Source: Bacteroidales bacterium CF | GTDB lineage: Bacteria; Bacteroidota; Bacteroidia; Bacteroidales; UBA932 | Assembly: GCA_000473305.1 (NCBI GenBank) | Contig: CP006772.1 | Span: 806,001 to 870,000 of the forward strand | DNA: 64,000 nucleotides | Direction of reading: 5' to 3' | Part shown: one piece after another, positions 7,065-64,000 of the stretch | Position numbering within the stretch: position 1 is the stretch's first letter | Layout: every line of letters starts with the position of its first letter | Notes under the pieces: model-generated | Told to the model about the DNA's origin: nothing | The model's input: the letters and a program-made list of their open reading frames with translations, nothing else | The model's database searches: none | Made by a program: the position numbers and the translations under genes

Positions 7065-8588
7065 ATGACAAACAAGAGAGTTCGGGTAAGATTTGCACCA
7101 AGTCCAACAGGCCCGTTACATATAGGCGGAGTCAGGACAGCATTGTTCAACTATTTTTTTGCCAGACAGAACGGGGGAGATTTTATTCTCAGAATCGAGG
7201 ATACCGATTCTCAGCGTTTTGTGCCCGGTGCTGAAGAGTATATTAACGAATCACTCAGATGGTGCGGCATTAAGATTGATGAAGGTGTTGCGGAGGGGGG
7301 AAAACATGCACCATACCGCCAGAGTGAACGAAGGGCAATATACAGGCAATATGCAGATCAACTTGTTGCTAACGGTTATGCATACTATGCCTTTGATTCT
7401 GCAGAGTCGCTCGATAACCTGAGAAAAGAGGCTGAGTCAAGAGGAGATGCCTTTACATATAATTTCAAGATAAGAAATAGTATGGAAACCTCTCTGGTTA
7501 TGAGCGAGCAGGAGGTACTGGAGAGAATTGCAAAGGGAGATCAGTGGGTAATCCGTTTCAAGATGCCCGAAAATGAGGAGATTCACATGACAGACCTTAT
7601 CCGTGGAGAGGTAACTGTAAATACTTCAACACTGGACGACAAAGTGCTTTTCAAGAGTTCCGACCTTTTGCCTACATATCATCTGGCCAATGTAACAGAT
7701 GATTACCTGATGGAGATAACCCATGTAATCAGGGGAGAGGAGTGGCTGCCGTCGCTGCCTCTGCATGTAATGCTATACAGGGCTTTCGGTTGGACAGAGA
7801 GTATGCCTCAGTTCGCACACCTTCCTTTATTACTTAAACCTACCGGGAATGGTAAACTGAGCAAGAGAGACGGAGACAAGATGGGATTCCCTGTTTTTCC
7901 GCTTCTCTGGAAATCACAGGATGGAGAGACATCGCGCGGCTACAGGGAGGATGGATACTTTCCTGAAGCTTTTGTAAACCTTCTTGCCCTGCTTGGATGG
8001 AATCCCGGAACCGAACAGGAGCTCTTTTCGATGGATGAACTTATCGAAACATTCTCTTTCGAGAGGGTAAACAAGGCCGGCGCAAGGTTCGACCCGGAGA
8101 AGGCAAAGTGGTTCAATCATCAATATTTGGTTGAGAAGAGTGATGATGAACTCTCGACTCTCTTTATGGACTTCATGAATACAAAAGGTATAGAAGTTAA
8201 CCCCCAAAAAGCCTTGAAGATTGTCTCATTCATGAAAGTCCGTGTAAATTTCATACATGAGATATGGGAAAAGGCTCAATTTCTCTTTGTAAGACCTGAG
8301 TCATATGATGAGGCATCAGTTAAGAAATTCTGGAAAGAGGAGTCACCGGCGATAATGAAGGAGGTTGTTGCTGTTCTTCAAGGCGTTGAAACCTTCAGCT
8401 CGGAAAATGTCGAAAAGAGTCTGGAATCATTTATTGCTGAGAAGGGCTATGGTATGGGAAAGGTTATGAACGCACTGAGACTTGGTCTGCTGGGTATTTC
8501 TAATGGTCCCGGTGTGGCTGATGTCTGTGAGGTTGTAGGTAAACAGGAGACAATTGCAAGGATTGAGAATGTAATCTCTAAACTATAA
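7065..8588 (+). CDS. gltX: Glutamyl-tRNA synthetase
   Basis: A class I aminoacyl-tRNA synthetase of 507 residues that charges tRNA-Glu with glutamate. The N-terminal catalytic domain shows RFAPSPTGPLHIGGVRTALFN (HIGH-type motif at His19) and FILRIEDTD. The second signature KLSKRDG is near residues 264-270, followed by the helical anticodon-binding region. Length and motifs match bacterial GluRS with no oddities. A tRNA-Glu gene lies 70 bp downstream on the same strand, so enzyme and substrate RNA are neighbours. Confidence 0.97.
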   Translation: MTNKRVRVRFAPSPTGPLHIGGVRTALFNYFFARQNGGDFILRIEDTDSQRFVPGAEEYINESLRWCGIKIDEGVAEGGKHAPYRQSERRAIYRQYADQLVANGYAYYAFDSAESLDNLRKEAESRGDAFTYNFKIRNSMETSLVMSEQEVLERIAKGDQWVIRFKMPENEEIHMTDLIRGEVTVNTSTLDDKVLFKSSDLLPTYHLANVTDDYLMEITHVIRGEEWLPSLPLHVMLYRAFGWTESMPQFAHLPLLLKPTGNGKLSKRDGDKMGFPVFPLLWKSQDGETSRGYREDGYFPEAFVNLLALLGWNPGTEQELFSMDELIETFSFERVNKAGARFDPEKAKWFNHQYLVEKSDDELSTLFMDFMNTKGIEVNPQKALKIVSFMKVRVNFIHEIWEKAQFLFVRPESYDEASVKKFWKEESPAIMKEVVAVLQGVETFSSENVEKSLESFIAEKGYGMGKVMNALRLGLLGISNGPGVADVCEVVGKQETIARIENVISKL

Positions 8589-61452: not shown

Positions 61453-61485
61453 CAAATGTAATAAAAACATTACATTTTTCTCAAT
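61453..61485 (-). promoter_or_regulatory. Promoter for sppA
   Basis: On the minus strand TACATTTG at 61460-61453, with a partial ATTG at 61485-61482 (21-bp spacing). Predicted start is near 61447, 17 bases before the ATG. The box is also one arm of an inverted repeat (AAATGTAAT/ATTACATTT) that includes the stop codon of the response-regulator gene. Confidence 0.5.
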
Positions 61486-62147
61486 CTGTAGCCCACACCC
61501 CTGATATTCTCAATATTGACAGGTGTTGATGCAAGCTTTTTCCTGAGATGAGAGGCGAGAGCCTCAAGAGATTTTTTGGTGTCGATATCTTTATCTTCCC
61601 ATATAGATATCACGAGGTCTGAGACTTTGCAAATCTGGTTGAAGTTGTTACACAAAATCTGCAGCAACTTGTTCTCATAAAACGAAAGTATGGTAGCTTC
61701 GCCATCCTGCATCATCAGACACCTCTCTTCAGGGGAGTAATTGATGTTTCCCAGAGTGAATATATCGTTGTTCTTGCTCGAAATCTGCATGCACTTCTGC
61801 ACTCTTATCAACAACTCTCTCAATCCGAAAGGTTTTTTCAGATAATCACTGCATCCTATCTCAAAACCATTAGCAACACTGCTGTCGTCACTGATAGAGG
61901 TTATGAATATGATGGGGATATTCTTGTCAACGGCCCTAATGAGCCTGGCAACCTCAAATCCGTCGATTTCAGGCATATTCACATCAAACAGGCAAAGGTC
62001 CGGATGGAATTGATTGTATTGTTCCAACGCAGAACGACCGTCGCTTACAAATGAGAGTTCATAACCGCTCATTTTAAGAAACTCGCACATGGCATAGCCA
62101 AAGTTCAATTCATCATCGGCTAGAAGTATCCTCTTTCCCATGCTCAC
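61470..62147 (-). CDS. OmpR/PhoB-type response regulator
   Basis: A 225-residue regulator. The receiver domain has Asp11-Asp12 (LLADDEL), the phosphorylated Asp55 in CLFDVNMPEIDG, and the lysine in YLKKPFGLREL. The C-terminal winged helix is of the OmpR type, ending ASHLRKKLASTPVNIENIRG and then VGYRLRK. It overlaps the kinase gene by 35 bp and is therefore co-expressed with it. Its DNA targets are not known, but direct repeats with 11-bp spacing occur in front of the kinase gene and of the C39 exporter gene, which is the usual form of OmpR-type sites. Confidence 0.95.
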   Translation of the reverse strand: MSMGKRILLADDELNFGYAMCEFLKMSGYELSFVSDGRSALEQYNQFHPDLCLFDVNMPEIDGFEVARLIRAVDKNIPIIFITSISDDSSVANGFEIGCSDYLKKPFGLRELLIRVQKCMQISSKNNDIFTLGNINYSPEERCLMMQDGEATILSFYENKLLQILCNNFNQICKVSDLVISIWEDKDIDTKKSLEALASHLRKKLASTPVNIENIRGVGYRLRKM

Positions 62148-63489
62148 AATTTATTGATAAAGTAAAAGTGCTTCCCTTTCCCACTTCGCTGACAAGAGTG
62201 ATCTTACCTTTATGGGCTCTGACCACCCACATTACATAGTTAAGGCCAAGTCCGAAACCTTTGCCTTTCTGTGCATGCTCTTTCTTGCTGCCTCTGTAGA
62301 ATTTTTCAAACACTTTGGCTTGTTCCTCTTTTGGAATGCCAATGCCATTGTCTTCTACAGATATATAGAAATATTTGCCCTCTTTGCGGGTAGAAACATT
62401 AATTCTAACTGAATCGTTCGAGTACTTGATTGCATTATCTATCAGATTGCCAATTGCATTCGAGATATGAAGTTCATCACCGTATATCTCATCTCCTCCT
62501 ATGGGTATCTGTGTAGTAATAACAATACTCTTTTTGGGGTCTACATTGTGTCTGGCTATGTGCGGGTCTATAGCCTCGTGGATATTGAATACTTTTTTCT
62601 TTAGCGGGGCTTGTCTTTTTTCAAATTTGTTAATATCAAGTATATTCTCTATCAGACCATTAAGGAAATAGAGCTGTTCTTTAGACTTTCCCAGGAAGTA
62701 AGGTGCAGATTTGGAGTCTGCCATCTCAGCAACCTCTAGGTTTGTTATAGATGATTGTAACGGGGATCTCAGTTCATGCGTAAGGAAGTGTGTAATATTC
62801 TCCTTCACTTTGGCAAGCGATACCTGCTTGTACAACATTCGTGTCTGGAGTACTATACTTACCATAATAAATATGGTCAAGACGAGTGACGAGAGCAGCA
62901 TTATCAGAAGGTCTCCCTTGAAAACCGTCGGTGGATATAAAATATGAGCTGAAACAATCAGATCTTTTGACATACTTATAGGAAGAGATGTTTCAAAGGA
63001 GGATTTGATCAATATATTCTTAAATACCTTATCGCTCTCTGCACTGTATGTCGATGATGTGGTTGAATCGAGATATGTAAGTTTGAAATTTGTCTCTTTT
63101 CCATCTGCTTTCAGAAGATCTGCAAAATATTTCGATAGTGTGTCAATCTCTAAAGGTAGAATGTTTTTGTATGCATCTTGAAGTGCAGCCTCAATCGATA
63201 CTTTGGTAAAATTATTACCCTCTTTTATACCAACATCCTTGTATTTTTCCTCATTTTGAGATATGTCAGATGGAGCATTATTCGAAATAACAACAGAAAA
63301 ACCATCGCTTTTGCTGATTTTTTTCATTCTGGAGTTAAGCTCCTTGTTTACAGCATCCTTAAGTATAGACTCCGTTTGGGTTCGATAATCAACCTTCTCA
63401 CTGTCAATGAGTCTGTATAGCCATACACCCTGGATGCCCAGAAGAAAAAATATTGCAATAATAGATATTGTAAGTGCTCTGTTAAGCAT
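62113..63489 (-). CDS. Sensor histidine kinase
   Basis: A 458-residue kinase. Two membrane helices (about residues 7-25 and 195-218) enclose a 165-residue periplasmic sensor with no recognised fold. The HisKA box is THFLTHELRSPLQSSITN (His near residue 237). The ATPase domain shows the N-box AIGNLIDNAIKYSND, DNGIGIPKEEQ, and GFGLGLNYVMWVVRAHKG. It is divergent from the GG-leader peptide gene, and its start codon lies 3 bp from a repeat element. It probably senses an extracellular cue; the encoded secreted peptide is one candidate. Confidence 0.95.
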   Translation of the reverse strand: MLNRALTISIIAIFFLLGIQGVWLYRLIDSEKVDYRTQTESILKDAVNKELNSRMKKISKSDGFSVVISNNAPSDISQNEEKYKDVGIKEGNNFTKVSIEAALQDAYKNILPLEIDTLSKYFADLLKADGKETNFKLTYLDSTTSSTYSAESDKVFKNILIKSSFETSLPISMSKDLIVSAHILYPPTVFKGDLLIMLLSSLVLTIFIMVSIVLQTRMLYKQVSLAKVKENITHFLTHELRSPLQSSITNLEVAEMADSKSAPYFLGKSKEQLYFLNGLIENILDINKFEKRQAPLKKKVFNIHEAIDPHIARHNVDPKKSIVITTQIPIGGDEIYGDELHISNAIGNLIDNAIKYSNDSVRINVSTRKEGKYFYISVEDNGIGIPKEEQAKVFEKFYRGSKKEHAQKGKGFGLGLNYVMWVVRAHKGKITLVSEVGKGSTFTLSINCEHGKEDTSSR

Positions 63490-63492
63490 TTT

Positions 63493-63519
63493 TCAGCAAA
63501 TTATCAGTAAATGGTCAGC
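63493..63519 (-). promoter_or_regulatory. Three 11-bp-spaced direct repeats before the kinase gene
   Basis: On the minus strand, GCTGA, ACTGA and GCTGA begin exactly 11 bp apart (plus-strand positions 63515-63519, 63504-63508, 63493-63497). Each of the last two is preceded by TTT. Tandem half-sites at 11-bp spacing are typical for OmpR/PhoB-family binding. A 22-bp part of this element (63493-63514) recurs before the exporter gene. Confidence 0.6.
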
Positions 63520-63591
63520 GTTCTGTATGCAAATGTAACAATTATTCTTAATTTATTTGTACAACAAAAAACAAATAAAAACATCAAAGCC

Positions 63592-63723
63592 ATGAGAACA
63601 AATTTTGAAAAACTGAATGAACAAGAGATGATTAACGTAGTAGGTGGTGATCAAGTTATACGAGTAACTGATTCTGATGGTAGCGTATATTACATTATTA
63701 TTCGTGACGGTAGGAAGAATTAA
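63592..63723 (+). CDS. Double-glycine leader peptide precursor (secreted peptide)
   Basis: A 43-codon gene. Residues 1-19 (MRTNFEKLNEQEMINVVGG) match the double-glycine leader pattern Lxx-xE-[LM]xx-[IV]xGG, cut after Gly-Gly by C39 peptidase transporters. The predicted mature peptide has 24 residues, no cysteine, about neutral charge, a VYYIII hydrophobic core and a polar end GRKN. A longer frame from 63511 exists, but the GG leader begins at ATG 63592. The next gene encodes a C39 exporter, which fits a precursor-exporter pair. The activity (signal, bacteriocin or other) is unknown. Confidence 0.82.
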   Translation: MRTNFEKLNEQEMINVVGGDQVIRVTDSDGSVYYIIIRDGRKN

Positions 63724-63750
63724 ATTAAGTCTTTTATCTGAAGTTTGCCC

Positions 63751-63784
63751 CCATTTAATGATAATTTGCTGATTTTCAGCAAAT
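63751..63784 (+). promoter_or_regulatory. Shared 22-bp element plus hairpin before the C39 exporter
   Basis: 63751-63772 matches the minus-strand element at 63514-63493 in 21 of 22 positions. It contains AATGA and GCTGA 11 bp apart. Its end also forms a perfect 9-bp inverted repeat with a 3-base loop (ATTTGCTGA at 63764-63772, TCAGCAAAT at 63776-63784), not followed by a T run. A regulator site is the likely reading; an RNA structure between peptide and exporter genes is the alternative. Confidence 0.58.
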
Positions 63785-63814: not shown

Positions 63815-64000
63815 ATGTACAGGAGACCATTCAGACATTTCCATCAGCTGGACTCCATGGATTGCGGCCCCACATGCCTGAGAATGGTTGCCATGCATTA
63901 TGGACACCATTATACATTAGAGACACTGAGGGAAAAGTGTGAATTTTCCCGGGAAGGTGTAAATCTGTTCGGTATTGCAAAAGCCGCAGAGAGCATTGGG
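63815..64000 (+). CDS. C39-peptidase-domain ABC exporter (PCAT), N-terminal part only
   Basis: An open frame of 62 codons from ATG 63815 runs off the window. It starts HQLDSMDCGPTCLRMVAMHYG, with the oxyanion Gln11 and catalytic Cys17 of a C39 peptidase domain (split here across the motif). Next come LETLREKCEFSREGVNLFGIAKAAE, matching the following helix region of the family. Peptidase-containing ABC transporters cut double-glycine leaders and export the cargo. This fits the precursor gene 91 bp upstream. The membrane and ATPase domains must lie beyond 64000. Confidence 0.9.
   Translation, partial: MYRRPFRHFHQLDSMDCGPTCLRMVAMHYGHHYTLETLREKCEFSREGVNLFGIAKAAESIG

Follow-up and report, generated by a model that had tools for sequence, protein, structure and literature searches.

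A tandem array of 11-bp half-sites between a two-component operon and a double-glycine peptide gene in Bacteroidales bacterium CF, predicted to be the operator of the adjacent OmpR/PhoB-type regulator

The window, a stretch of 64,000 nucleotides, belongs to the 2.66 Mb genome of Bacteroidales bacterium CF, for which the genome-wide counts given here rest on pattern searches. A response regulator of the OmpR/PhoB type was identified at 61470-62147 on the minus strand, with a receiver (Pfam Response_reg, 1.1e-25) and a winged helix (Trans_reg_C, 9.4e-13), the two domains required in the cognate regulator of an OmpR/PhoB-type operator, and its recognition helix is KKSLEALASHLRKKL. The nearest named regulator model in NCBIfam was RprY of the Bacteroides RprXY system; the score was 153.8 bits, below the curated equivalog cut-off of 370, so the regulator was not assigned as RprY. 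Unlike in RprXY, the kinase was not recognised as RprX, and the neighbourhood was different. This membrane sensor histidine kinase (62113-63489, minus strand, 458 aa, HATPase_c 1.8e-26) possesses a sensor domain without recognised family between two predicted membrane helices. A Pfam search gave no match for the domain, and a fold search with a low-confidence model returned nothing usable, the best hits being ribosomal proteins (E 0.016, TM about 0.3). The kinase was present in 23 of the 24 other genomes of the genus, with distant matches only outside the genus, and a search of genome contigs with it led to a single near-identical MAG.

On the plus strand, a gene at 63592-63723 encodes a 43-aa peptide with a double-glycine leader, whose predicted mature form, DQVIRVTDSDGSVYYIIIRDGRKN, would have about 24 aa and no cysteine. 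The leader matched TIGR01847 and TIGR04149 weakly, both below cut-off, and the gene was kept at the same position in the relatives that could be read through. It is followed by the exporter, a C39-peptidase ABC transporter of 732 aa, which starts at 63815 on the plus strand and continues beyond the window end at 64000 (L002:815-3013), and then by an HlyD-type adaptor (L002:3006-4316). In relatives with readable flanks, the peptide gene and exporter also come after the kinase. Downstream of the exporter operon (L002 4706-7390) were a His/Cys-rich small protein and a TonB-dependent receptor, and the small CxxC protein after the receptor had, by eye, the look of a heavy-metal-binding domain.

A double-glycine-leader peptide adjoining a C39 ABC exporter is the mark of double-glycine pheromone circuits, and the kinase and regulator were present in the same locus; their control of the peptide promoter is deduced from the operator geometry described below. 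The streptococcal ComABCDE and BlpABCRH systems likewise keep a double-glycine peptide, a C39 ABC exporter, a kinase and a regulator together, and the likeness would include autoinduction, which is predicted here. The streptococcal Com and Blp regulators are of the LytTR type, whereas the host here is Gram-negative, the kinase is of the HisKA/HATPase kind, the regulator is of the OmpR/PhoB type and the peptide is a candidate ligand. The general design nevertheless resembles that of the streptococcal double-glycine peptide circuits (PMC7595303). Bacteroidetocins, which are also double-glycine-leader peptides of Bacteroidota, have 42-48 aa with cysteines and are defined by two or more cysteines in a mature form of about 35-50 aa (PMC6671954), so the present peptide fell outside the definition in both length and cysteine content. 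Its conserved core would suit a signal better than a toxin. No description of peptide signalling via a two-component pair in Bacteroidota was found in the literature searched, to which most subscription papers and preprints did not belong.

Two copies of a 22-bp element, CCATTTACTGATAATTTGCTGA at 63493-63514 on the minus strand and CCATTTAATGATAATTTGCTGA at 63751-63772 on the plus strand, flank the peptide gene in opposite orientation and agree at 21 of 22 positions, exactly as described in the first-pass annotation. With up to three mismatches only these copies were found in the window, while shuffles expect 0.00, and an inverted 22-mer match as good as theirs (21) within 501 bp was reached by 0 of 300 simulated regions. 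When the whole genome was searched with TTTNCTGATAATTTGCTGA, both copies were recovered at 0 and 1 mismatch, the next match had 2 mismatches and the others 3, and these remaining matches were near the level of the reversed-pattern control; the genome thus holds two close copies, not an element scattered many times over random sites. A recent duplication or a mobile repeat without regulatory meaning would account for how unusually alike the copies of this genome are, even in their spacers, but it is hardly credible with only two close copies in the whole genome, and with half-sites and register conserved across the genus while the spacers diverge.

As had been claimed, the minus copy continues into a series of three (C)TGA half-sites, each exactly 11 bp from the next (63493-63519): GCTGA at 63493-63497 (TCAGC on the plus strand), ACTGA at 63504-63508 and GCTGA at 63515-63519. 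The array goes one unit further than was annotated, with a fourth, degenerate half-site GCATA at 63526-63530 in the same register, read on the plus strand as TATGC followed by AAAT and present in relatives as TRTGC or TGGGC with AAAT. The two or more same-orientation half-sites at 11-bp steps that characterize a tandem operator were therefore present. The direct repeats had been ascribed to both copies, and this held for the minus copy; the plus copy has one intact (C)TGA half-site together with AATGA. The length of 22 bp was overstated as well: relatives keep the half-sites, while between their two copies the spacers are identical at 2 to 6 of 6 positions, and since spacer identity is lost in this way, the functional unit would be the half-site array rather than the 22-mer. 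The genome has two more perfect arrays of four half-sites, one at C1:1505294-1505331 (L093 ~7294-7331), which is flanked by convergent genes and conserved in G006, and the other at C1:2406883-2406920 (L094 ~7883-7920). The arrays had no match in Rfam, which returned only cobalamin riboswitches elsewhere, and sigma-70 and terminator scans gave nothing above shuffles.

Towards the peptide gene, the array leads to a -7 box, TTTATTTG, at 63552-63559 on the plus strand, in a fixed layout of GCAAAT, 17 bp and -7 box; the Bacteroidales -7 consensus is TANNTTTGY (PMC12632263). In 18 genomes of the same genus, three TSAGC-N6 half-sites, TRTGC-AAAT, 17 bp and TTTATTTG followed one another with invariant spacing, the third TSAGC half-site being degenerate in some of them and of the ATAGG type in G005, while a deep subclade with the core CTTA has its own array with slightly different spacing. 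Wherever this region was readable, the kinase-regulator genes lay on one side of the array and the peptide gene on the other. A search pattern that combined a pair of half-sites, the GCAAA-bearing terminal half-site and, across the fixed gap, a -7 box matched 35 times in 25 genomes and 0 times when reversed, and a few of its two-mismatch matches, including the second one in this genome, look like chance. Beyond the peptide gene, this promoter class was found before a 7TM-PAS histidine kinase in four species (L097:7486-9240, also L105, L108 and L113), which suggests a second kinase in the regulon, and upstream of 6-bladed beta-propeller or small secreted-peptide genes. The fixed position relative to a promoter that is expected of a tandem operator was thus seen at the peptide promoter of the 18 genomes and at other genes. 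Among arrays picked by half-sites alone, six outside the peptide locus had a perfect TANNTTTG at the exact predicted offset, and in two more a fourth full half-site brought it closer by one 11-bp step; some of these arrays are orthologues and so not independent. The promoter model does not hold for all arrays: no -7 box was found at the expected place beside the two others in this genome, which were dropped as further members of the class. At the peptide locus, the array was at first read as an operator of the kinase operon, a reading which was replaced once the peptide -7 box was seen to stand at a conserved distance from it. The row of half-sites would very probably be the switch by which the adjacent regulator controls the peptide gene, and the peptide promoter, a target absent from the first-pass annotation, would be the principal one.

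The first-pass annotation had also predicted that the regulator controls its own operon. The operator does lie beside the kinase gene, and its position suggests feedback repression rather than activation. A kinase-directed -7 box, TACATTTG, was located at 63530-63537 on the minus strand, upstream of the array in the direction of the kinase and overlapping the fourth half-site. The motif TANATTTG overlapped the terminal half-site on the kinase strand in 18 genomes, and CAAANNTA was found in 14 of 14 kinase-adjacent promoters versus 2 of 16 other promoters of the class (p = 8e-7, relatedness ignored), so that TANATTTG is likely the kinase -7 box. Because this box abuts the array, the array would cover the kinase start region: the three good half-sites would fall around the start site and within the leader, 3 bp away from the ATG. 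Positive autoregulation is common among two-component operons, and the regulator could in the same way activate the kinase operon from the array, so that all parts would be positively autoregulated. This is unlikely here, as the -7 box on the kinase strand is upstream of the array with the good half-sites at the start and leader, whereas regulators of this family activate from sites upstream of the -7 box, the arrangement found at the peptide promoter. Feedback repression of the kinase-regulator operon, its sign read from position only, is probably the better description, since the array lies downstream of the kinase -7 box.

The core of the half-site was CTGA in most species, CTCA in G019, G018, G002 and G009, mixed in G014, CTAT in G005 and CTTA in the deep subclade. 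In its recognition helix, the adjacent regulator carried ASH with CTGA, (A/T)SN with CTCA (G009, G018 and G002), VLN with CTAT, and VHK, LHK or VYK with CTTA, and the mixed-site species G014 had an intermediate helix, KRSLETLASHV, which keeps ASH with a neighbouring Lys-to-Arg change. Core and helix thus changed together in each of the four core classes, among some 20 related genomes, a covariation made up of few lineage changes, with CTCA having arisen once or twice (weakly supported nodes). The G019 regulator was left out of this comparison on account of a stop. In that genome the response regulator (L143 5622-6224), close to the end of a contig, is interrupted within its recognition helix by this stop, which may reflect a pseudogene or an assembly error. 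Reciprocal genome scans gave 25 perfect CTGA triples in the CTGA set (13 genomes) versus 0 in 11 others, and perfect CTCA triples numbered 12 across the 8 genomes of the CTCA set, one triple being inside a coding region, versus 2 in 12 CTGA genomes, overlapping registers of one array being counted separately. Since other arrays were found switched, the change of core is not confined to the peptide locus.

Direct repeats of 11 bp, a winged-helix regulator and a proximal half-site in the -35/-33 region are shared with the pho box and with the PhoP direct repeat of M. tuberculosis (a 7-bp motif with a 4-bp spacer); unlike these, the predicted operator here has a TCAGC half-site, four units, a Bacteroidota -7 promoter and a core that varies among species. 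TGTCA-type words at 11-bp steps are generally read by PhoB-like proteins. The array with its TGTCAGC words, which resemble the pho box, could then be the site of another OmpR-family regulator, PhoB or the partner of the 7TM-PAS kinase, and be here by chance, all the more as arrays also stand at unrelated genes, that of the 7TM-PAS kinase included. We consider this rather improbable: it is the helix of the adjacent regulator that changes with the core in all four classes, and the array keeps its place between the kinase-regulator and peptide genes wherever it can be read. The claim that a tandem 11-bp operator of the OmpR/PhoB type is read by the neighbouring regulator thus gains support from the joint change of core and helix and from the other arrays that follow it, and the assignment to this regulator is well supported for these two reasons. 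In M. tuberculosis PhoP, Tyr220 contacts C at the second position of the motif TCACAGC (PMC4832192). The His/Asn/Lys position of the helix corresponds to Tyr220 in a by-eye alignment, and if the motifs are laid TCA on TCA, the contacted base would be the one that changes here.

Between the peptide and exporter genes, the plus copy has the half-sites AATGA (63757-63761; GATGA, GCTTA or GCTCA in relatives) and, 11 bp on, GCTGA (63768-63772; GCTCA in the CTCA species G018, G002 and G019). It is followed by an inverted copy, TCAGCAAAT, at 63776-63784, so that 63764-63784 on the plus strand reads as an inverted repeat, ATTTGCTGA-TTT-TCAGCAAAT, which could be an inverted half-site, a 9-bp RNA hairpin or both. 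In 16 genomes two tandem half-sites were kept, with the inverted one in most, and they switched to CTCA in three CTCA genomes and partly in a fourth. A box like TATGTTTG, degenerate in some genomes, was present about 37-42 bp downstream of the element in 13 of 16 genomes (in G018 it was read by eye, the script having picked a nearer match), and no such box was seen in this genome, its close relative G006 or G004. It is a distinctly possible, though not a likely, reading that this copy is an RNA hairpin of 21 nt which determines how much exporter is made relative to peptide or makes the peptide mRNA more stable, and that it resembles the operator only secondarily. Such a reading would fit the perfect 9-bp stem of this genome and its want of a clear exporter promoter, the stems of relatives, which differ in sequence and reach beyond the half-sites (five relatives had z-scores of -2.2 to -3.3), and the short peptide-exporter gaps of CTTA and CTAT species, in which the element is missing. 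It does not explain why the half-sites keep 11 bp and switch to CTCA in G018, G002 and G019, nor why G002 has half-sites without a hairpin; moreover, the fold signal of this genome was not above shuffles (z -0.2), and no terminator T-run follows the hairpin. Control of the exporter by the regulator, as had been predicted, is accordingly plausible from the conserved and co-switching half-sites, and is weakened here by the missing in-register promoter and by the hairpin. A second, weaker site which tunes exporter expression, as operator, as hairpin or as both, is a plausible description, and the two roles may coexist. A palindrome, ACATAAT..ATTATGT, was observed around the exporter -7 box in L017, L020, L022, L023, L026 and L034, its two arms varying in matching fashion between species, and was absent in the window genome.

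Taken as a whole, the array is probably the operator of the adjacent regulator, serving peptide activation, kinase feedback, exporter tuning and an autoinduction loop. We infer from the layout that phosphorylated regulator molecules would line up head-to-tail on the 11-bp half-sites (TCAGC-N6, towards the peptide gene). With the proximal half-site TRTGC-AAAT occupying the -33 region and separated by a constant 17 bp from the -7 box of the peptide gene, the regulator would activate the peptide promoter in the manner in which PhoB replaces a -35 element. The bound array would cover the start region of the divergent kinase-regulator operon, which would thereby probably be held down as negative feedback. 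The weaker second site, with two tandem and one inverted half-site, would tune exporter expression between the peptide and exporter genes, and the exporter would cut the peptide after GG and secrete it. The mature peptide would most likely be sensed by the kinase as its ligand, and the autoinduction loop would be closed.

At the scale of the genus, we propose, as a reading somewhat less likely to be right than wrong, a peptide quorum-sensing circuit of Bacteroidales in which a GG peptide acts on a periplasm-facing kinase, the kinase on an OmpR/PhoB-type regulator, and the regulator on a private promoter class (four 11-bp half-sites, a fixed 17-bp gap and TANNTTTG), with operator word and helix rewritten together at least three times in one genus and a mixed-site intermediate species. 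The locus would be a concrete candidate in which signal, exporter, sensor, regulator, operator and regulon are all predicted. The CTGA, mixed, CTCA, CTAT and CTTA species of one genus form a natural series for the joint change of regulator and site, in which both the protein position and the DNA base of the specificity change are named.

Two other layouts of arrays were observed in relatives. At L098 (~7041) and L100 (~7346), an array with a perfect -7 box, TATGTTTG, stood before a conserved stretch without clear ORF that itself precedes small secreted-peptide genes, and this stretch is possibly a small RNA or a long leader. At L099 (7020-7201) and L101 (3086-3266), two arrays in opposite orientation, about 155 bp apart, lay upstream of a DMT-type permease gene, in an arrangement that echoes the peptide-exporter layout.
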